From positions 62,001 to 126,000 of the forward strand of contig NZ_CP065521.1 in the NCBI RefSeq assembly GCF_018986735.1: a DNA stretch of 64,000 nucleotides. Direction: 5' to 3'. The DNA is from Schaalia sp. 19OD2882 (GTDB taxonomy: Bacteria; Actinomycetota; Actinomycetes; Actinomycetales; Actinomycetaceae). The notes beneath the pieces are model-generated. The model was not told the DNA's origin and made no database searches. It saw only the letters and a list, made by a program, of their open reading frames with translations. A program made the translations under genes and the position numbers. This document shows positions 54,778-63,607 of this stretch, one piece after another. Within the stretch, counting starts at the first letter, position 1; every line of letters begins with the position of its first letter.

Positions 54778-56526
54778 TCAACCCAGCTCCGGGAATTTCG
54801 CCGACTGGTCTGCCAGGACGCGCCGGTACACTTGGCTGTCGGCCTTCAACTGCTCGTGCGGGCCGTGTGCGATGACCTTTCCTGAATCGAGCACCCAGAT
54901 GGACTCGGCGTCAACGAGAGAAGCGCGTCGGTGGGAGATCACCAAGGTCGTCCGTCCTCGCCGCAGCAGGGTCGCCGAGGCGGTGATCTCTTGCTCCAAC
55001 TCCGGATCGAGATTGGCCGAGGGCTCGTCGAGGATGAGCAGGCGCGGCTTTCGCAAGAAGGCCCGCGCGAGGACCACTCGTTGTCGCTCACCTCCGGAAA
55101 GAGCGGTTCCCCGGTCTCCCACGGCCGCGTCGAGGCCGCCAAGTCCCCTGACGAATTCTTCGAGCCCGGCTGCCCGCAGTGCCGACCACATCTCGTCGTC
55201 GTCGGCCTCCCAGTTGGCGAGCAGAAGGTTCGAGCGGATGGTCCCGGAGAACACGTGGCCGTTCTGGGGCACGAGGGCGACCATGAGCCGATGGTCGTCG
55301 GGGGCGAGGCTTCGCAAGTCGCGGCCCGAGAAACGGATGCTTCCCGAGTCCGGGTCCATGAAGCGCATGAGGAGATGAGCGAAAGTCGACTTTCCGGATC
55401 CTGAGGGGCCGACGAGGGCGACTGTCGCGCCCTCGGGGATGAGGAGACTCGCCTCCTCAAGCGCGGGCGTGTGCTCCTGCTCGTAGGAGTAGGTCACCGA
55501 CGAGGCGACGGCGGCATCCTCCTCGCCTTCGACGAGGGGCAAGGGGATCGGGGCGGAAGGGATCGGGTCCGGGGCGTTGAGGACTTCGTTGATCCGATGG
55601 GCGCATGAGGACACTTCTCCCATGATGCCGAGCATCTGTGCGAGGGAGGCGGCAGGAAGAGTCGCCATGCCGATGAGAACGACGGCGACGGGAAGCAGGG
55701 GTGCGGGGTAGGAGCCGGCGACGACCCTTCCCGTGAGCACGGCGAGGACACTGATGGTGACCACTGTGGCTCCGATGGCGGACCCGGCTGATTCGAGGCC
55801 TTTGCGCATCGCCTGTGAGAGTTTGTCCCGCTGCACTTGCGCGGTCGTTTCCAGGACACGGCGGGCGTGAGCGTCGCGTTGCCCCAGAGCGTACAGCTCC
55901 CGTGCGCCGACAACGGAGTCGAGGCCCAGGGACTTCAGTGAGGAGAGCCCCTCGCGCACCTTCTCCCCCTGGGCCCTTTGGATCGGGCTGACCAGTGCGG
56001 GCAGGAGGATCGGCAGGGCCACCGAGATGAGCACGAGCAGTGCGAGCGGTCCGATGAGGGCGAAGAGGACCGCCTCGATGATGATCGTGTTGACGAGGGC
56101 GGCAACTGCCACGGGGGCGGTGTGGGCGTAGAACCATTCCAACTGTTCCATGTCGTTCATGGCCGCAGCTGTCAGGTCCCCGGTTCTGCGCCCTGACAAG
56201 CCCCGTGGAGCAATCCTGCGGATCGCCTCGTACAGGTCGATCCTCATGCGCGCGAGGATCTGGTAGGCGAGCTGGTGGGACCACCACGCGTCGTAGAGGT
56301 AGCACAGGGCGTGGACGATCGCCAAGGTGAAGAGGGTGAGGAAGAGAAGATCGACTTGGGGCCGGCTCTCGGAGACCAATGTCGTCGTGATCCACACGCT
56401 GACGACCGAGACGAGGACGAGGGCGATCTGGTGAAGAGTGATGACGAGGACTGATCCGAGGAACAGTCGCCTGAAGTCTCGGAGTCGCCCCATGACGGAC
56501 ATGAGGTCCGTGAAGGTCTGCTTCAT
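54778..56526 (-). CDS. ABC transporter half with fused membrane and ATPase domains (second half)
   Basis: The 582-residue protein has a six-helix exporter-fold membrane domain (about 1-310) and an ATPase domain. The ATPase has Walker A VGPSGSGKST (about 371-380), signature LSGGERQRVVLARAF, Walker B LLILDEPSANLD and switch ISHRRAS. It pairs with the next upstream gene as a heterodimer resembling CydDC/IrtAB-type transporters. It has no peptidase domain. As the last gene of the YcaO operon it could export the modified peptide or bring the metal complex across the membrane. The direction cannot be told from sequence. Confidence 0.85.
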   Translation of the reverse strand: MKQTFTDLMSVMGRLRDFRRLFLGSVLVITLHQIALVLVSVVSVWITTTLVSESRPQVDLLFLTLFTLAIVHALCYLYDAWWSHQLAYQILARMRIDLYEAIRRIAPRGLSGRRTGDLTAAAMNDMEQLEWFYAHTAPVAVAALVNTIIIEAVLFALIGPLALLVLISVALPILLPALVSPIQRAQGEKVREGLSSLKSLGLDSVVGARELYALGQRDAHARRVLETTAQVQRDKLSQAMRKGLESAGSAIGATVVTISVLAVLTGRVVAGSYPAPLLPVAVVLIGMATLPAASLAQMLGIMGEVSSCAHRINEVLNAPDPIPSAPIPLPLVEGEEDAAVASSVTYSYEQEHTPALEEASLLIPEGATVALVGPSGSGKSTFAHLLMRFMDPDSGSIRFSGRDLRSLAPDDHRLMVALVPQNGHVFSGTIRSNLLLANWEADDDEMWSALRAAGLEEFVRGLGGLDAAVGDRGTALSGGERQRVVLARAFLRKPRLLILDEPSANLDPELEQEITASATLLRRGRTTLVISHRRASLVDAESIWVLDSGKVIAHGPHEQLKADSQVYRRVLADQSAKFPELG

Positions 56527-58322
56527 CGATGCTCGATTCCTTGCGAAGCCGCGGGTGCGGGTCCAGGTGCGGGTTCATGTGAGGGGCCGATGACGTCCTC
56601 CGGGCGCCCGACGGCGACGATCCTTCCGCGGGAGAGTCTGACGACCCGGTCCGCGCTTGCGGCCACTTCCATGCGGTGGGTGACCAGGACGAGGGTCATG
56701 TCGGGAAAGGCTCGGCGCACGCCGGACAGGACGCGGGCCTCGGTGTGTGAATCCAATGCCGATGTGGACTCGTCGAGGATGAGGACCCGTGGCCGTTTGA
56801 CGAGGGCGCGGGCGATGGCCAGGCGCTGTCGTTGTCCACCGGAAAGATTGGCTCCCGCTTCTTCGACGAAGAGTTCAAGGTCGTCACGGCATGCACCTGT
56901 GTCCGAGGGTGTGGTGGCGGCTCGGGTCTCGTGGAGTGCGTGAGCACCGGCGAGGGTCAATGCACTGAGCATGTCGTCCCGGGTCGCCGTGGGGGCTGCT
57001 GCGGCGAGGATCTCTTCAACGGTGCCGGGGAAGATCACGGGGGACTGGGGCACCAGGGAGATCGTCGAGGGAATGTCGACATCGGTCGTGGGCTCGCCGC
57101 CGATCGTGATGCTCCCCTCGGTGGGGGAGTCGAGACCGAGGATCATGCCGATGAGCGTCGATTTGCCTGAACCCGAACCACCGATGATCGCGAGGAATCG
57201 CCCTTGAGGGATCCGCACGGAGGCATCGCTCAGCGCAGGCACGGTCGCGCCCTCGTAGGTGTAGGAGACGCCACTGGCCTCGATGTCGGCAGGAACGCCC
57301 TCTGGCAGTGCGCGACGATCATGCCCGACGGCAGCCGAGCCGGGGACGTCGGGGCGCTCGGCATGGAAGACTTCGTGAATCCGCGTCGCAGCGCTCAAGC
57401 CGAAATATCCCGCATGGAAGGCGTTGGCGAGGTCACGAAGCGGCCGGAAGACTTCAATGGACAACAGGGTGATGAAGAAGAGCCGGTCGACACCGTAGGA
57501 ACCTTGACGGACCTCCAGAGAAGCGATGAGGAGTGCGATGGCAGGGCCCAGAACCATGACCGCGGCGGAGGCGCCGGTTTCTCCGAGCGAGACGCGCAGT
57601 TGCGACAGGGTTGTTCGCAGCAGTTCCTCCGAGCGCGCCGCAAGTCTGCGTCCGTAGGTTCGGCTCGCTCCGAAGGACTTCAGGGTCTCCATCCCCATCA
57701 TCGCATCGACGAAGTCGCTGTTGAGATCGGCGTACGCCTCCCAGTGGGCTTGGCCCTCCTCGGCAAGAGCGCGGTCCCACAGTCGTGGCACGAGGAAGGT
57801 GGCTGTTGCGCACACGAAGAGTGTCACGCCGATGATCGGGCTGACGGTGCCGATCCACAGGCACAGGGAGGCGGCCGTCAGCGCCGTGACCGCGATCTGA
57901 GGGATGTAGGAGCCGAAGTAGGGTTCGATGGCTTCGACTCCGTCGACCATCAGCGATTCGAGTGCTCCGGCGCGCGATGAACTCAGCCGCATGGGCCCTC
58001 GCTCTGCGATGTCGGCGAGGATCCTTCGTCGCAGATTGACCTTGAGGGTCAGGCCGACCCTGTTCACCACGTGGGCTCGCAAGAGGCCGAGGAGAGGAAT
58101 GAGGACCAGAAGTGCGGCGAGGACACAGATCAGGCCCGTCAACGCTGCGGGGGAGCGCCGCCCCAACAACTCGGAGAAGATCATCGAGTTGACGAATGCG
58201 CCTGCGACCAAGGCGCCGCTGCTCGCCACGCCGGTGAGAACCGGTGCAATGAGGATTGTCGGGCTGACTCCTGCTGCGTCGAAGACCGCGCGTTGGCGGG
58301 CTCCTGCTCTTCGAGTGCTCAT
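56523..58322 (-). CDS. ABC transporter half with fused membrane and ATPase domains (first half)
   Basis: The 599-residue protein has a membrane domain (about 20-320) and an ATPase with Walker A IGGSGSGKST (about 373-382), signature LSGGQRQRLAIARAL and Walker B VLILDESTSALD. The switch is VTHRMEV. Both halves have intact catalytic residues. It starts with ATG 27 bases after the binding-protein gene and overlaps its partner by four bases. N-terminal siderophore-interacting or C39 domains are absent, so it is neither a canonical IrtA nor a bacteriocin-processing exporter. Confidence 0.85.
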   Translation of the reverse strand: MSTRRAGARQRAVFDAAGVSPTILIAPVLTGVASSGALVAGAFVNSMIFSELLGRRSPAALTGLICVLAALLVLIPLLGLLRAHVVNRVGLTLKVNLRRRILADIAERGPMRLSSSRAGALESLMVDGVEAIEPYFGSYIPQIAVTALTAASLCLWIGTVSPIIGVTLFVCATATFLVPRLWDRALAEEGQAHWEAYADLNSDFVDAMMGMETLKSFGASRTYGRRLAARSEELLRTTLSQLRVSLGETGASAAVMVLGPAIALLIASLEVRQGSYGVDRLFFITLLSIEVFRPLRDLANAFHAGYFGLSAATRIHEVFHAERPDVPGSAAVGHDRRALPEGVPADIEASGVSYTYEGATVPALSDASVRIPQGRFLAIIGGSGSGKSTLIGMILGLDSPTEGSITIGGEPTTDVDIPSTISLVPQSPVIFPGTVEEILAAAAPTATRDDMLSALTLAGAHALHETRAATTPSDTGACRDDLELFVEEAGANLSGGQRQRLAIARALVKRPRVLILDESTSALDSHTEARVLSGVRRAFPDMTLVLVTHRMEVAASADRVVRLSRGRIVAVGRPEDVIGPSHEPAPGPAPAASQGIEHR

Positions 58323-58349
58323 TGTCTTCCCCAGGGCCTCTTCTTCGTC

Positions 58350-59384
58350 TCAGTGTTCCGAGAGCACCTTCACGAGTTCGCCAGCGGCGTCGATCGCTTC
58401 GACGGTCGGGTAAGCGGCTCCTGAGGGCAGCTCAATGATCCTCTTGTTCCGGAAGGCCGTCGTTTCCGTCATTCCCGGGATCTTTTTCATCCGGGCGATC
58501 GAGTCCTCAAGGGTGATTCCGCTTTCGCCGGTGGTGACGACGATGACATCCGGGTTGGCCTTGACGATGGCTTCAGGTGAAATGGCGCCGTTGAACATCG
58601 CGTCGTAGCCCGGGTCGACGACGTTCTTCAGGTTCGCGGCCTTGAAGACTCCCTGGATCGTTGAATTCGCGCCATAGGCGAAGAGCTCGTCCGAGGAATC
58701 CCAGTAGTACACGCCTGCCACCTTGAGCTCGGGAAGCTTCGCCCCCGCGCTCCGGGCAGCGGCAAGGTCCTTGTCCATGGCGCTGGCGTTCTCGTCGGCC
58801 TTCTCCTTCGTGTTGAAAAGCGCTCCGAGTTCGCGGACGTGGGCGGGGATCGCGTCGAGATCGGAGAAGTTGCTCGACGTGTCGGCGAAGGCGTATGAGC
58901 AACTGTTGGGGGGCATCACGGCCATGATGTGGTTGTTCTTGAGATTGTCGATGGCGAGATCGCCCTCACCGAGGGCCGATCCGTACATCATGTCCGGACG
59001 CAGTTCGAGGACGTGCTCGAAGCTGATGCTCCCGTGACCCTGTCCGCCGCCCGATGCCACCTCCTCGACCCCGGGCAGAGCCTTGAGCTCCCTGTCGATC
59101 CTGGAGCCGTAGAGGGCTCCGTGTTCGCCGAAGCGCGCGACCATCTTCTCCGCGGCGCCGGCGGAGATGATGTTCGCAACCCCCTCTCGACCTGCGCCGA
59201 TGATTCGCATGGGTTCGCGGTCGACAACGACCTCCTGTCCGCAGAAGGAGGCCTTCATCGGGTAGGCGGCGCTCGAGGACGCGCTCGCCGACGGGTCAGG
59301 GGTGGTGGAGCCGCTCGTCGAGCAGCCCACGAGTGCGAGGGTTGCGCATGCCGCGATCGCCAGCAGGAGGGATTTGAGTGTCAA
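58350..59384 (-). CDS. Siderophore/metal-complex ABC transporter binding lipoprotein
   Basis: The 344-residue protein has a lipobox LVGC (about residue 21), a Ser-rich linker and the helical-backbone TroA/FepB-type fold. Typical elements are REPMRIIGAGREGVANIISAGA, LELRPDMMYG and ANPDVIVVTTGESGITLEDSIARMKKIPG. It would capture a metal chelate, vitamin B12-like or heme-like ligand outside the cell. The start is TTG 59384 behind GAAGGAAG; weak initiation is odd for a binding protein. It lies 12 bases after the ATPase gene. Confidence 0.86.
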   Translation of the reverse strand: MTLKSLLLAIAACATLALVGCSTSGSTTPDPSASASSSAAYPMKASFCGQEVVVDREPMRIIGAGREGVANIISAGAAEKMVARFGEHGALYGSRIDRELKALPGVEEVASGGGQGHGSISFEHVLELRPDMMYGSALGEGDLAIDNLKNNHIMAVMPPNSCSYAFADTSSNFSDLDAIPAHVRELGALFNTKEKADENASAMDKDLAAARSAGAKLPELKVAGVYYWDSSDELFAYGANSTIQGVFKAANLKNVVDPGYDAMFNGAISPEAIVKANPDVIVVTTGESGITLEDSIARMKKIPGMTETTAFRNKRIIELPSGAAYPTVEAIDAAGELVKVLSEH

Positions 59385-59396
59385 TGTGACTTCCTT

Positions 59397-60179
59397 CTAT
59401 CGAGTGGTTGATGTGAAGAGGAATTGTGGTTTTCCGCAGTGTTCGATCCGTGAGACCGCGACGCCGTACAGTTCGGCGATGGTGTCTTCGACCAGGACGT
59501 CCTCGGCGGTGCCGACTGCGCACAGGCGACCTGCGTCCAGGACATGGATCCGGTCGCAGTAGCGCGCAGCCATGTTGAGGTCGTGGAGGACGACGATCAC
59601 GGTTCGGCCCAGACCGCGCAGCAGGGAGAGGACCTCGTGCTGATAGCGGACGTCGAGATGGTTCGTGGGCTCGTCGAGCAGAATGCACCGGCTCCCCTGG
59701 GCAAGAGCCCTGGCGATGACAACCCGCTGACGCTCCCCTCCGGAGAGTTCGTCGGAGCGCCGGTCGCGTTTGTCGAGCATTCCGACCGCCTCAAGGGCCT
59801 CCAGGGCCAGGGCTCGGTCCTGGTCGTCGTAGGGGCAGAAGTCGGACAGGAAAGGCATGCGTCCCAGTAGAACCTCGTCGAGGACGCTCATCCGATGAGG
59901 GATGAACGACTGTTGGACGACGACACTGATTTCCCGGGAGATCTCGTGGGGCCTGAGGGCGGCAAGTGGCCGATCGTTGAGGAGGACGTGCCCACGGGTC
60001 GGGGACAGGCCTCTGTACATCGTGCGCAGCAGTGTGGTCTTTCCGGATCCATTCGGACCGACAAGGCCGTTCATCGCTCCGTGGGGGACGTCGATGCTGA
60101 TGGAGTCGAGGGCGAGGGTCTGCCCGTACGCCACGCTGAGATCTTCGATCCGGAAAACGGGGGACTGAGTGGTCGTCAT
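59397..60179 (-). CDS. Siderophore/metal-complex ABC transporter ATPase (FecE-like)
   Basis: The 260-residue ATPase has Walker A GPNGSGKTT (about 40-48), signature LSGGERQRVVIARAL (about 144-158) and Walker B CILLDEPTNHLDVRYQHEVL, the FecE/BtuD-family sequence. The switch His is in VLHDLNMAARYCD. It energises the FecCD-type permease, which it overlaps by four bases. Confidence 0.92.
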   Translation of the reverse strand: MTTTQSPVFRIEDLSVAYGQTLALDSISIDVPHGAMNGLVGPNGSGKTTLLRTMYRGLSPTRGHVLLNDRPLAALRPHEISREISVVVQQSFIPHRMSVLDEVLLGRMPFLSDFCPYDDQDRALALEALEAVGMLDKRDRRSDELSGGERQRVVIARALAQGSRCILLDEPTNHLDVRYQHEVLSLLRGLGRTVIVVLHDLNMAARYCDRIHVLDAGRLCAVGTAEDVLVEDTIAELYGVAVSRIEHCGKPQFLFTSTTR

Positions 60180-61288
60180 TCGTCATTCCTTGCATCGCGC
60201 CCGATGAGGAGCATGAGGAGTGGGGCTCCCAGGAGGGCGGTGATGACGCCGATGGACATTTCTCCGGGGGCCACGGCGACTCTTGCCACGAGGTCGGCGA
60301 GGAGGATGATGATGGCGCCGGTCAGGGCGCAGGCCAAGGCGGAGCGTCTGAAGATTCCTCCGTGCATCCGTTTGGCCAGGTGTGGGACGACGAGGCCGAT
60401 GAACCCGATCGTCCCGGTCAGCGAGACGAGGAAGGCGACGACGAGGGAGATGAGGAGGAAGACGAGGAAGCGCTGGCGGTTCGGGTTGATTCCGAGGGTG
60501 CGTGCGATGTCGTCGCCCAGTGAGAGGGCGTCGATGCGCCGTCCGATGATGATGAATCCGAGGATCCCGCATCCGCTGGCGGCAGTCGCAATGGCGACTT
60601 CTGTCCAATGGCTTCCGGCCAGGGAGCCCAGCATCCAGAAGACGACGGATCTCGTTGTCGTCGGATCCTTTGCGAGCATGATGATGAGGCTGGTGAGTGC
60701 GGAGAAGAAGAAGTTCACCGCCATTCCGGCGAATATCACCCGGGTGTTCGTGAGCCTTCCGGCGCTTCTGGCCAAACCCATGACGAGGGCGAGCGAGATG
60801 AGTGAACCGATGAAGGCTCCTGTGCCGACTCCGATGCGGATGGGTCCCCCAACCGTGTGCAGTCCGAAGACCATGACCGCCGCCGCCCCTGTTGATGCTC
60901 CTGCGGAGATCCCGAGGATGTAGGGGTCGGCAAGGACGTTGCGGAGCGTCGACTGGGCAGCCAGGCCACTGATGGCCAGCCCTGCCCCGCATGCGGCGCC
61001 GACGAGGGCGCGCGGAAGACGGGTGCTCCAGATGATGCCTTCGTCGACGGGGCCGGGAGCGGGAAGAATGCTCCACTCCCACGGGGTCAGGTGTTCGAGG
61101 ACGATCCTCAGTGTGACTCCCGGAGGGATCGAGACCGCTCCGATGCCGCACGCCAAGAGCAGCGAGGTGAGCAGAAGGATGACGAGGAGGGTGTCGATGC
61201 CCACGGCGCGGGCCCGCGTGGCGAGGCGCTCACGACGCTCCTGCTCATCCACGACGGTGCTGGGCAAGGGGATGGGGACCTCAGGCAT
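60176..61288 (-). CDS. Siderophore/metal-complex ABC transporter permease (FecCD family)
   Basis: The 370-residue permease has about ten helices with family motifs TRLPRALVGAACGAGLAISG, ADPYILGISAGASTGAA (about 140-156), VFWMLGSL and GFIGLVVPHLAKRMHG (about 300-315). FecCD permeases work as homodimers and import iron siderophores, heme or cobalamin. It overlaps the YcaO stop by eight bases, so the importer and the peptide-modifying enzyme are translationally coupled. Confidence 0.92.
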   Translation of the reverse strand: MPEVPIPLPSTVVDEQERRERLATRARAVGIDTLLVILLLTSLLLACGIGAVSIPPGVTLRIVLEHLTPWEWSILPAPGPVDEGIIWSTRLPRALVGAACGAGLAISGLAAQSTLRNVLADPYILGISAGASTGAAAVMVFGLHTVGGPIRIGVGTGAFIGSLISLALVMGLARSAGRLTNTRVIFAGMAVNFFFSALTSLIIMLAKDPTTTRSVVFWMLGSLAGSHWTEVAIATAASGCGILGFIIIGRRIDALSLGDDIARTLGINPNRQRFLVFLLISLVVAFLVSLTGTIGFIGLVVPHLAKRMHGGIFRRSALACALTGAIIILLADLVARVAVAPGEMSIGVITALLGAPLLMLLIGRDARNDE

Positions 61289-63404
61289 GGGGAAGGGGGA
61301 ATCGATTGAGCTGGTCGGGGGTCTGCGCCCTGTCGTGCAGTCCCATCCGGTGGTAGGCGTTGAGTATCCGCCCTCGGCCCAGCGTGATGTCTCCTGCGGG
61401 GAAGTTCGGGACGAGGCCGGGAACGAGGACGCGCATCACGGTGCCGTGACACGCTCGGATGTCGGGGGTGGTCACGTCGACGGTGAGTATTTCGTACCCG
61501 GCTGCCTCCAACTTGTCGCGATAGTAGGCCGAGCAGCGCGACTCGCCTTCGTCCACCGGGTAGTGGGAGGCGGGGACTTCCGGGCGGTCGAGGTGGGGCG
61601 AGCGTTCTGCCTGCGCCCTGGGATCGAGATTGAGTTGCTGTTGGATCATGAGGTCGTGGACGGAGTCGTAGTCCCAGTTGATGGTGTCCAGGTAGGCGCG
61701 GTCCTGCCTGTGGGGCAGCGCCATGTTCGGCGACAACTCCATCCTCTCGATGGCCGTGAACATCCGTCCTTCGGGGTTGAGGAGGTCGATCGCCCCGTCG
61801 AACAGGGTGGCGGCCTCGGTGACGGCTTTGAGAGCGGCCTTGTCGAGGGTCGGCCTGCAGGAGAATCCGATGTTGCAGGTGCGGTGGTGGTCATTGCGCA
61901 GGACTGCGGCGACGACGGGGATGCGGAACTCGTTCGGGAGGATGAAGAAGGTGAGGCTGAATCCTTTGGCCTTGAACTGCTCAACGACCTCGTCGACGCT
62001 CTTGGTGGAAAGCGCAACAGGATTGATCGTCGGCTTCGAGTGCCACCAGATCATGGTGGCGTCACGCTCGATGATCTCCTCGAGGCCGTTGACGAGAGCC
62101 CCTTCCGTGTCATGTCCGGCGGCGATCCCCGCGTAGGGGACCGGAGCGATCCGAGGGAATGAGGAGACGGGTTCCCCCAGGATCGTTCCCGTGCGGTTGT
62201 AGTTGACGTGAACCATGGACACGGGGACGAGCTCTTCACGATCGCGCGTGAGGTTGTGCGCCGGCATCCATGGGATGCGTGTCGAGCGTGTGAAGGGTGC
62301 GAATCGAAAACCGGGCTGCGCATGCTGATCGGGGGAGAAGAGGACGAAGTTCTCCGGGGCGACCGGGTGAAGGCCCGAGGACACGAGGGTGTCGTAGTCG
62401 TCGATGACGAAGGAATCGGAGTTGATGACATTGACGCAGTACCGTTCGATTGCTTCTCCCACCGCGGAGCGTCGTGCCTCGTCCACGTCGTCGATGGCGC
62501 TTCCTTGGCAGACGGTGTTGTTGCTCCACTGGCTGATGACGCGAATGTCCGTGACATCGGATTGGACAGTGGTCACGCATTCTGGAAGGGCTTCGTGGTG
62601 GCTGATCGTGCGAAGGCGCGTGACGATGCCGGCGAGTTCGTCGCAGAACGCATCGGAATGAATGTCAATGATCGAAGGCGCGTCCTCGTATCCTTTCCAC
62701 GTCAACCAAGGCACGAGGATCCGGTCGCGCCTGAGTGCGGAAAGCATGTTGATTGTCGTCCAGCCCAGCGCGGATGCCGCGCCTTCGCCCCGCGTGCGCG
62801 AGATGCGTGCTTCGAAGAGGGAATCGGGGTTCTCCTCCAGGCGTTGGCGGACGAGGTCCACGCTGGGAGGGCGTAGCGTCGCCGATGTTGCCCGGGGGAC
62901 GAGGCTCGCTGCGGTCAGACGCGCTTCCAAATGCTTGTACACATGAGGGAATCGCGGGCTCGACAGTGGGCCGAGGTAGAGCTCGGGGAATCGGACGAAG
63001 AGGGCGAGAAAGGATGCTCCGGCGCTCAGAGCGCGTTCTTCGACCTTGATCGCTCCGGGGAGGTCCGGGGTCGCCGAGTAGTGAAGGACGATCGTGGCCG
63101 CACAGAGGTCTTCGGCCTCGAAGAAGCATGCCGTGGTCATCGTGCGTGAGCAGGCCTTGGAGAGGCTGGTCGGCGCCGGGTGGTCGGTGACGAGAATCGG
63201 GTTGGCCTTCTCGGGAAGGTTGATCGTGAGGGACAGGGGACGGGAGGGGAGCGGAAGGGCGACGGGTGGGCACCAACCGATTGCTTCGAGATCACTGAGG
63301 GTGCCTCCGAGGAGTACCCCGTCGGATCTGCGGGCGCAGGAGTCGTGTACGCCGTTTTCGGACGGCCAGAGTTGGACGAGGCCCTTTCCGCTTCCCTGCC
63401 CCAT
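61281..63404 (-). CDS. YcaO-family peptide cyclodehydratase/modifying enzyme
   Basis: The 707-residue protein has an N-terminal region (about 1-250) with the size and position of the leader-binding part of TOMM cyclodehydratases. A YcaO domain follows (about 270-690). ATP/Mg residues are in SAVGEAIERY (about 313-322) and LEEIIERDA (about 441-449). The C-terminus ends FPLPHA, a reduced form of the Pro-rich PxPxP tail typical of azole-forming YcaO proteins. These enzymes activate backbone amides with ATP to make azolines, amidines or thioamides. It starts four bases after a 43-codon peptide gene. No azoline dehydrogenase or leader peptidase is seen in the window. Confidence 0.85.
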   Translation of the reverse strand: MGQGSGKGLVQLWPSENGVHDSCARRSDGVLLGGTLSDLEAIGWCPPVALPLPSRPLSLTINLPEKANPILVTDHPAPTSLSKACSRTMTTACFFEAEDLCAATIVLHYSATPDLPGAIKVEERALSAGASFLALFVRFPELYLGPLSSPRFPHVYKHLEARLTAASLVPRATSATLRPPSVDLVRQRLEENPDSLFEARISRTRGEGAASALGWTTINMLSALRRDRILVPWLTWKGYEDAPSIIDIHSDAFCDELAGIVTRLRTISHHEALPECVTTVQSDVTDIRVISQWSNNTVCQGSAIDDVDEARRSAVGEAIERYCVNVINSDSFVIDDYDTLVSSGLHPVAPENFVLFSPDQHAQPGFRFAPFTRSTRIPWMPAHNLTRDREELVPVSMVHVNYNRTGTILGEPVSSFPRIAPVPYAGIAAGHDTEGALVNGLEEIIERDATMIWWHSKPTINPVALSTKSVDEVVEQFKAKGFSLTFFILPNEFRIPVVAAVLRNDHHRTCNIGFSCRPTLDKAALKAVTEAATLFDGAIDLLNPEGRMFTAIERMELSPNMALPHRQDRAYLDTINWDYDSVHDLMIQQQLNLDPRAQAERSPHLDRPEVPASHYPVDEGESRCSAYYRDKLEAAGYEILTVDVTTPDIRACHGTVMRVLVPGLVPNFPAGDITLGRGRILNAYHRMGLHDRAQTPDQLNRFPLPHA

Positions 63405-63408
63405 GTGC

Positions 63409-63540
63409 TCAGTCTTCGAGTTCGGCGGTGAGCTGGTAGGCGGAGGTCGGGTGGATTCCCGGGTGGTGGTTGGAGTTGGGCGCGAGGATCGCGTCTTCGC
63501 GGCTGGTTTCAGTGATTTCGCTGACAGTCTTGTCGCTCAA
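63409..63540 (-). CDS. Putative 43-residue RiPP precursor peptide
   Basis: A TTG at 63540 with an excellent AAGGAGG six bases upstream opens a 43-codon frame ending four bases before the YcaO ATG. The first 20 residues are acidic and polar (MSDKTVSEITETSREDAILA), like a leader. The second half has PNSNHHPGIHPTSAY and then an acidic tail LTAELED. It has Ser, Thr and three His but no Cys. Position, strong ribosome site and composition make it the likely YcaO substrate. It is too short for most gene callers. The modified residues and cleavage site are unknown. Confidence 0.7.
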   Translation of the reverse strand: MSDKTVSEITETSREDAILAPNSNHHPGIHPTSAYQLTAELED

Positions 63541-63572
63541 GGTGAGCCTCCTTCATGTGATGCCTGCATGAA

Positions 63573-63588
63573 CTTAGTGCGCACTAAG
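63573..63588. promoter_or_regulatory. Perfect 16-bp palindrome, probable TetR-type operator
   Basis: CTTAGTGCGCACTAAG reads the same on both strands. It lies between the YcaO-operon promoter region and the peptide gene, 33 bases before the TTG start. Size and symmetry suit a TetR dimer, and a TetR-family gene begins at 63902 on the other strand. Confidence 0.6.
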
Positions 63589-63607
63589 CAAAGTGAGTCT
63601 AACCTAA
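63589..63607 (-). promoter_or_regulatory. DtxR/IdeR-like iron box overlapping a -10 element
   Basis: On the minus strand the 19-mer starts TTAGGTTAGACT and matches the DtxR/IdeR consensus at 14 of 19 positions, with the whole first nine bases identical. TAGACT inside it can serve as the -10 box of the YcaO operon. Binding of an iron-loaded repressor here would switch the operon off in iron-rich conditions. Confidence 0.55.

Follow-up and report, generated by a model that had tools for sequence, protein, structure and literature searches.

The 64,000-nucleotide window analysed here (contig NZ_CP065521.1 of the actinobacterium Schaalia sp. 19OD2882, positions 62,001 to 126,000 of the forward strand) carries on its minus strand an operon in which a 43-residue peptide and a YcaO enzyme are linked to a siderophore-type importer behind a DtxR-type box. 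The operon probably serves to make and recover a metallophore of the class of ribosomally synthesized and post-translationally modified peptides (RiPPs), under iron or manganese control here and under zinc control elsewhere. This reading is carried by the gene linkage, the conserved precursor, the predicted fold of the enzyme and the boxes.

Precursor, enzyme and importer

Relatives were sought in 213 genomes of the same family. YcaO matches at E<=1e-20 occur in 25 of them, and the 21 at E<=3.4e-78 were followed, giving 22 close loci (genome G011 contributes two); the remaining four (G004, G017, G137 and G138; E 5e-22 to 2e-26) have remote enzymes in neighbourhoods lacking the operon's gene set and stand outside the counts. 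Gene content was mapped with tblastn, since simple picking of open reading frames hid genes under antisense frames.

The precursor gene (63409..63540, minus strand) starts with TTG, preceded by AAGGAGG, and its product has the core LAPNSNHHPGIHPTSAYQL. Each of the 22 close loci has, upstream of YcaO, a small open reading frame whose core reads APN[x][N/H][H/N]H or VPHCHH, the overall motif being [A/V]P[N/H]..HH. Four peptide types can be told apart: the window type APNSNHHP...TSA[Y/F]QL, APNS[N/H]HHGHVATSFSW, TVPHCHH...FAW, and APNGNHHPS, which is linked to a transporter of the major facilitator superfamily (MFS). Only the proline and one histidine are invariant among 23 aligned peptides, some of them near-identical, and the core holds no invariant cyclisable Ser, Thr or Cys. 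Between the window and Schaalia cardiffensis peptides the synonymous rate (dS) is 0.81 and the non-synonymous rate (dN) 0.18, over few sites. The idea that the frame is a chance one in an ordinary uptake operon was rejected because the motif is kept in every close locus and dN lies below dS, and the initial annotation was right to expect the frame to be conserved between species.

The 707-residue enzyme (61281..63404, minus strand; PF02624, Pfam E-value 9e-56, and TIGR03604) has named relatives in S. cardiffensis (74% identity), Actinomyces gerencseriae (56%) and, more distantly, Cutibacterium avidum (40%), and it is the single Pfam YcaO found in the 2.56-Mb, one-contig host genome. Its AlphaFold model (pLDDT 90, pTM 0.88) has an E1/ThiF-like domain at about residues 56-242 and a YcaO domain at 246-707, with LynD, TruD and MusD as the nearest structures. 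Residues 1-55 are modelled as three strands and one short helix, which is short for a RiPP recognition element; the N-terminus of a VPHCHH-type (type-B) relative is fuller, with four strands and two helices, and the best PDB alignments leave the N-terminus of both enzymes uncovered. The C-terminus, FPLPHA in the window, reads FP[LM]PH[AC] in all 18 aligned YcaO rows, two prolines that fall short of a full PxPxP.

In one close locus (L042, genome G060) the YcaO gene is split across two reading frames, with an MFS gene and a precursor next to it. L039 (7334-8785), L088, L089 and L090 carry a second, divergent YcaO-like gene downstream of the fused one, identified by Pfam in L039 and L090 and by tblastn in L088 and L089; it recalls the two-YcaO motif B clusters described in the accessible part of PMC8442711. 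A plasmid-borne bacteriocin was also considered and set aside: the three plasmid records found at E<=1e-20 are 31-36% identical, two having an MFS gene near YcaO and one being a streptamidine cluster.

The remaining genes, all on the minus strand, encode a FecCD-type permease (60176..61288; PF01032, 1.4e-82), a FecE-type ATPase (59397..60179; ABC_tran, 4.6e-33), a FepB-like substrate-binding lipoprotein (58350..59384; PF01497 (Peripla_BP_2), 1e-19, with a lipobox LVGC seen by eye) and two ABC half-transporters, one CydD-like (56523..58322) and one CydC-like (54778..56526), each with PF00664 and PF00005 and with TIGR02857 and TIGR02868, respectively, below their cut-offs. Every component that the initial annotation listed is thus in place. 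The operon spans 63540-54778, and its genes overlap by 4 or 8 bases or sit at most 27 apart (peptide-YcaO, 4 bases; YcaO/FecCD, 8-base overlap; FecCD/FecE, 4-base overlap; FecE-FepB, gap of 12; FepB-ABC1, gap of 27; ABC1/ABC2, 4-base overlap); the next gene, convergent to it, encodes glycerate kinase. The top NCBIfam model for the permease is TIGR03869, a putative F420-0 permease (245 bits, short of the cut-off of 437), and those for the ATPase are F420-0, corrinoid, heme and FecE ATPases, every one below its cut-off. Among PDB sequence matches, FepB resembles Fe-hydroxamate, siderophore and heme binding proteins. The same approach was uninformative for the ABC pair, as the 60 matches listed per protein are generic ABC transporters.

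FecCD, FepB, FecE and at least one ABC gene lie in the fetched stretch of 20 of the 22 close loci, spread over seven genera; L047 is rearranged, with ABC1 the only ABC gene seen. The co-occurrence that had been proposed as a check on the idea therefore holds for the peptide throughout, and for importer and ABC genes outside two MFS-type loci, which lack the importer as the C. avidum locus does. A close YcaO goes with a FepB-type match in 19 of 21 genomes, the overall figure being 42 of 213 (hypergeometric 1.2e-13, uncorrected for relatedness). Ten of the 23 genomes that have such a match and no close YcaO were fetched (including L057, counted among the 23, whose YcaO is deleted): in L065 the Fec genes occur with no ABC pair, L063 and L066 represent distant uptake loci, a contig end truncates L058, and L064 was not resolved. 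The VPHCHH loci add a protein of the prolyl oligopeptidase family (identified by Pfam in all five loci so tested and by similarity in 14 of 15), a candidate leader protease.

Metal-regulator-type boxes and uptake without synthesis

The box TTAGGTTAGACTCACTTTG lies upstream of the operon at 63589..63607 on the minus strand. It agrees at 14 of 19 positions with TTAGGTTAGSCTAACCTAA, which we take to be the DtxR/IdeR consensus and used for all box scoring of this type, and when the 330 bases upstream were dinucleotide-shuffled 1000 times, one shuffle equalled this score. The S. cardiffensis box reaches 16/19 (0/1000 shuffles), nine VPHCHH loci tested have boxes of 15-18/19 (0/200 shuffles each), and boxes of at least 13/19 stand 116-139 bases before the core in 18 of the 22 close loci, so that the promoter box noted at the outset is upheld. 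A perfect 16-bp palindrome, CTTAGTGCGCACTAAG, follows directly at 63573-63588; it is absent by eye from the S. cardiffensis promoter and may be a second operator.

With at most one mismatch allowed, a looser DtxR pattern has 3 sites in the host genome, that of the operon included (reversed control, 0), and one site each in S. cardiffensis and the congener G151, both at the metallophore-candidate operon. Of the other two host sites, one is at a Trep_Strep/CbiQ ECF operon, and the other lies between genes for a methyltransferase and an MFS protein. The host genome encodes three proteins of the DtxR family. The YcaO cluster is the closest match in G063 (5 places) and G208 (3 places), and one of 3 places, not the closest, in G196; other sites adjoin, by eye, Trep_Strep-like and metal-binding-protein-like genes. 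Trep_Strep ECF-type transporter genes stand beside DtxR-type boxes in three genera (L132 by Pfam, L171 and L175 by eye) and are perhaps another metal-related uptake system.

Similar gene sets extend beyond the family. At E<=1e-40 the YcaO relatives number 140 proteins, both fused and not fused. An alignment-based YcaO search at E<=1e-60 gave matches in 13 of 396 order genomes and in 5 of 396 phylum genomes, and L088, L089 and L090 (three other families of the order) as well as L100 (outside the class) combine a fused YcaO with a peptide bearing APNANNHGHVSTAFAWS or APNSNHHSH, an ABC pair and FecCD, FepB and FecE. These high-GC relatives have no DtxR box above chance. L088-L090 have instead a Zur-like box in the divergent ABC/FecCD promoter, at 11-12/15 against what we take to be the Zur consensus (1/500 shuffles each); L040 reaches 13/15 on the same scale (0/500 shuffles), as does L039, where the box was found by scanning the whole locus; the AT-richer loci also have chance matches of 12-13/15 at other places. 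Neither the window promoter nor that of S. cardiffensis has a Zur box above chance (9/15 each). A pattern derived from the Zur-like boxes gives 5-9 strand matches per genome in four genomes (reversed control, 0-1). Two of its other sites, confirmed by Pfam, adjoin a ZnuA gene (G572) and a ribosomal L28 gene (G253), neighbours that by their sequence assignment are as expected for Zur; one further site sits in a repeat-like stretch (L103). The initial annotation had assumed iron control: the DtxR boxes of the 18 loci fit it, and iron is not the sole option, as relatives carry a Zur-like box in their place.

The closest described clusters are those of streptamidine (ami), of which over 230 were found from standalone YcaOs; the structure, a six-membered amidine on HLSATH, has been solved, and its authors suspected a metal role from the Fec genes, a question of function left without answer since 2021 (PMC8442711, as far as its accessible text goes). 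Six such loci fetched here (L092-L096 and L102) have a separate YcaO, precursor cores of the form SA[x]HSNALVENPF and an ABC pair, with Fec genes in 5 of the 6 stretches (the exception, L095, being a short one), an S9-like (prolyl oligopeptidase-like) gene in 5 of 6, and, in both loci examined for it (L092 and L093), an S15-type hydrolase. A Rhodococcus rhodochrous plasmid record names its precursor a streptamidine family RiPP, in the same cluster as an iron ABC transporter and a prolyl oligopeptidase-like gene. The precursor model NF040714 matches in 20 of 394 genomes of the class, 17 of them over its cut-off of 40 bits; three ami peptides score 65.8-70 bits, whereas no NCBIfam model matches the window peptide at E<=1.

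A Zur-like box of at least 11/15 stands 140-175 bases before the core motif in 22 of 23 streptamidine loci (0/23 in a control region of the same size downstream); in L149, the one exception, the site at that distance scores 9/15, and no DtxR box of at least 13/19 was found among the 23. This set comprises the 17 over the cut-off, one locus per genome, and L157 (under the cut-off, with a stop inside the precursor), L092, L094, L095, L096 and L137; L095 and L155 share one genome. Duplicates (L093, L102), weak matches (L158, L159) and second units or further copies (L160-L165) were excluded, and for L145 the box was scored at the right site, its downstream control and DtxR score stemming from a wrong place. 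Four precursors (L143, L144, L146 and L154) have two tandem core units in one reading frame. The Zur-like boxes upstream of streptamidine precursors are new: they are reported neither in the literature searched, which covered few subscription papers, nor in the consulted text of PMC8442711, which does not mention Zur.

In a tree of YcaO domains the seven streptamidine enzymes form one clade (100/100), while the window-type, MFS-type, Zur-linked and VPHCHH enzymes form another (99/99) that includes the enzyme of L100 and a pair of plasmid enzymes, of which L139 is standalone. Inside this second clade the Zur-linked loci have the DtxR-linked VPHCHH loci as their sister group (96/99), with the window group lying apart; the type of regulator therefore changed at least once.

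Uptake genes also occur without an intact YcaO gene. In L059-L062, from four genomes without a YcaO match, the ABC pair and FecCD-FepB-FecE are divergently oriented, separated by a DtxR box of 16-18/19, and YcaO, peptide motif and S9 gene are all absent from the loci. In L057 (7328-7480; congener G151) YcaO is internally deleted, about the first 54 codons being left, unless the assembly is in error; box, peptide, Fec genes and ABC pair are retained. By gene content these five look like siderophore cheaters, candidate users of a product made by others. That the ABC pair is kept with FecBCD where YcaO and the peptide motif are absent suggests that it belongs with uptake, and it is probably not just a peptide exporter.

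Proposed mechanism and competing explanations

In the model we favor, where regulator binding, chemistry, secretion, the metal and re-uptake are what we infer, a DtxR-family repressor sensing iron, or possibly manganese, would release the box at 63589-63607 when that metal is scarce and allow a single transcript. The fused E1-like/YcaO enzyme would then process the 43-residue precursor, presumably activating a backbone amide with ATP. After removal of the leader the new N-terminus could attack the proline carbonyl to give a streptamidine-like six-membered amidine, as suggested by the Ala/Val-Pro conserved before the Asn/His-rich core; alternatively an azoline might form at a C-terminal Ser/Thr, or at the Cys of the VPHCHH type. 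An azoline between the two Asn/His residues was rejected as a universal step, since relatives have G, A or C there. The product would leave the cell, chelate metal through His/Asn side chains and return through FepB-FecCD-FecE, and the ABC pair would go with the importer, uptake or release in the manner of IrtAB/YbtPQ being likelier than peptide export alone. The same plan would operate under zinc (Zur) control in other actinobacteria, streptamidine clusters included.

Several observations weigh against this model, three of them most heavily. Binding of Fe, Co, Cu, Mg, Mn, Ni and Zn by streptamidine was sought and not found, and its YcaO mutant had no metal-starvation phenotype; deletion of amiF1-F4 abolished streptamidine production, which a pure uptake role would not predict (both according to the available part of PMC8442711); and L038 and L042 among the 22, with L032 of C. 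avidum, have peptide, YcaO and an MFS transporter, with no importer and no box. To these may be added that no exporter can be singled out, that the modelled N-terminus of the enzyme offers no clear recognition element, that the core position between the two Asn/His residues (S, G, A or C) is not always cyclisable, and that the top NCBIfam models for the three Fec-type proteins are putative F420-0 transporters, below their cut-offs. The window box is itself imperfect and that of A. gerencseriae weaker (13/19, 9/1000 shuffles); the neighbors of the other DtxR-type sites leave iron versus manganese unsettled; L100 has an importer and neither a DtxR nor a Zur box; and the DtxR-linked L041 has a Zur-like match of 12/15 (13/500 shuffles), which blurs the division between the two kinds of control. 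The secreted and re-imported metal-binding peptide initially proposed thus has linkage, conservation and boxes on its side, with the importer-free MFS loci, which in part fulfil what the initial annotation had itself named as refuting, standing against it.

These same loci, which retain peptide and YcaO, would be expected if metal limitation instead triggered the making of an antibacterial or signalling peptide that the ABC pair exports, with FecBCD importing some other siderophore or haem that merely shares the promoter. Iron-triggered bacteriocins exist. FepB-type matches often come with no close YcaO (23 of 42 genomes), heme binders are among FepB's PDB matches, and deletion of amiT1-T2 lowers streptamidine production, some product still being made (PMC8442711, accessible part). 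We nevertheless regard this as unlikely, given the adjacency of peptide and YcaO to the importer in 20 of 22 loci, seven genera and other families besides, and the same pairing in streptamidine clusters, whose product had no antibacterial or antifungal activity in the part of PMC8442711 available. The residual production of the amiT1-T2 mutants and the lack of a secretion signal visible by eye in the window peptide would also suit a peptide retained in or at the cell for the buffering or trafficking of metal, as with bufferins, a rather improbable alternative in that the importer of the 20 loci and the uptake-only loci point to an extracellular ligand. More improbable still is that YcaO is chiefly an ATP-dependent peptidase, a function named in the title of the MusD structure entry, and releases a short cleaved peptide with no heterocycles.

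Returning to the carrier made and recovered, a wider form of this proposal, which we hold with slightly less than even confidence, is that YcaO peptides with FecBCD importers make up a large class of actinobacterial metallophores in which the regulator has been exchanged (DtxR in many Actinomycetaceae, Zur in other families and in streptamidine clusters), that streptamidine is, or derives from, a zincophore, and that uptake strains lacking YcaO live on the carrier of others. If true, human-associated and environmental actinobacteria would share a ribosomal family under iron-type or zinc control, a genetically simple and easily mined source of metal carriers. The Zur-like boxes give a concrete hypothesis for the role of streptamidine; in the earlier metal tests the inducing condition may have been lacking, or the intact product overlooked.

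Comparison with known systems

Among the hits listed by the literature searches, which covered few subscription papers, there was no YcaO metallophore, and none of the papers searched contains any of six core strings taken from the peptide families. Most metallophores that have a dedicated importer are products of non-ribosomal enzymes. Siderophore clusters of the IrtAB/YbtPQ kind, like the window operon, place an importer and an ABC half-transporter pair behind a DtxR-type box; their ligand is made by non-ribosomal peptide synthetases (NRPS) or by NRPS-independent siderophore enzymes, whereas the ligand here is predicted to be ribosomal. Bufferins, from the published account accessible in part, and methanobactins are ribosomal copper peptides and resemble the predicted product in being ribosomal and metal-binding. 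They are made by MNIO enzymes rather than YcaO, and their control and transport differ. The cyanobactin-type fused cyclodehydratases LynD and TruD, along with MusD, share with the window enzyme the order of an E1/ThiF-like domain and then YcaO in one chain and the same fold, but at about 20% identity, and the window enzyme differs in its FPLPHA C-terminus, short N-terminus, precursor and gene context.

Comparison among loci thus partly supports the metallophore idea, and corrects its claim to novelty: the initial annotation, knowing of no described system with exactly this gene set, missed the streptamidine clusters, which are the closest known system. Like the window these have YcaO and E1-like functions, a small precursor with no stretch rich in Ser, Thr or Cys, FecBCDE genes (amiF1-F4) and an ABC pair (amiT1-T2), and with the VPHCHH loci they share a prolyl oligopeptidase-like gene. 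What stands of the claim is that their precursor is another one, with the core SATHSNALVENPF (HSNALVENPF in NF040714) in place of APNSNHHP, and that their YcaO is separate from the E1-like AmiB, whereas the window has both domains in one 707-residue chain; the survey of PMC8442711, in its accessible text, concerned standalone YcaOs only. They also include a hydrolase, AmiC, and a dehydrogenase, AmiE, while none of the operon's six non-peptide protein genes, all assigned by Pfam, encodes a dehydrogenase. Finally, the promoters set the two apart, with a DtxR-type box in the window and Zur-like boxes in the streptamidine loci.

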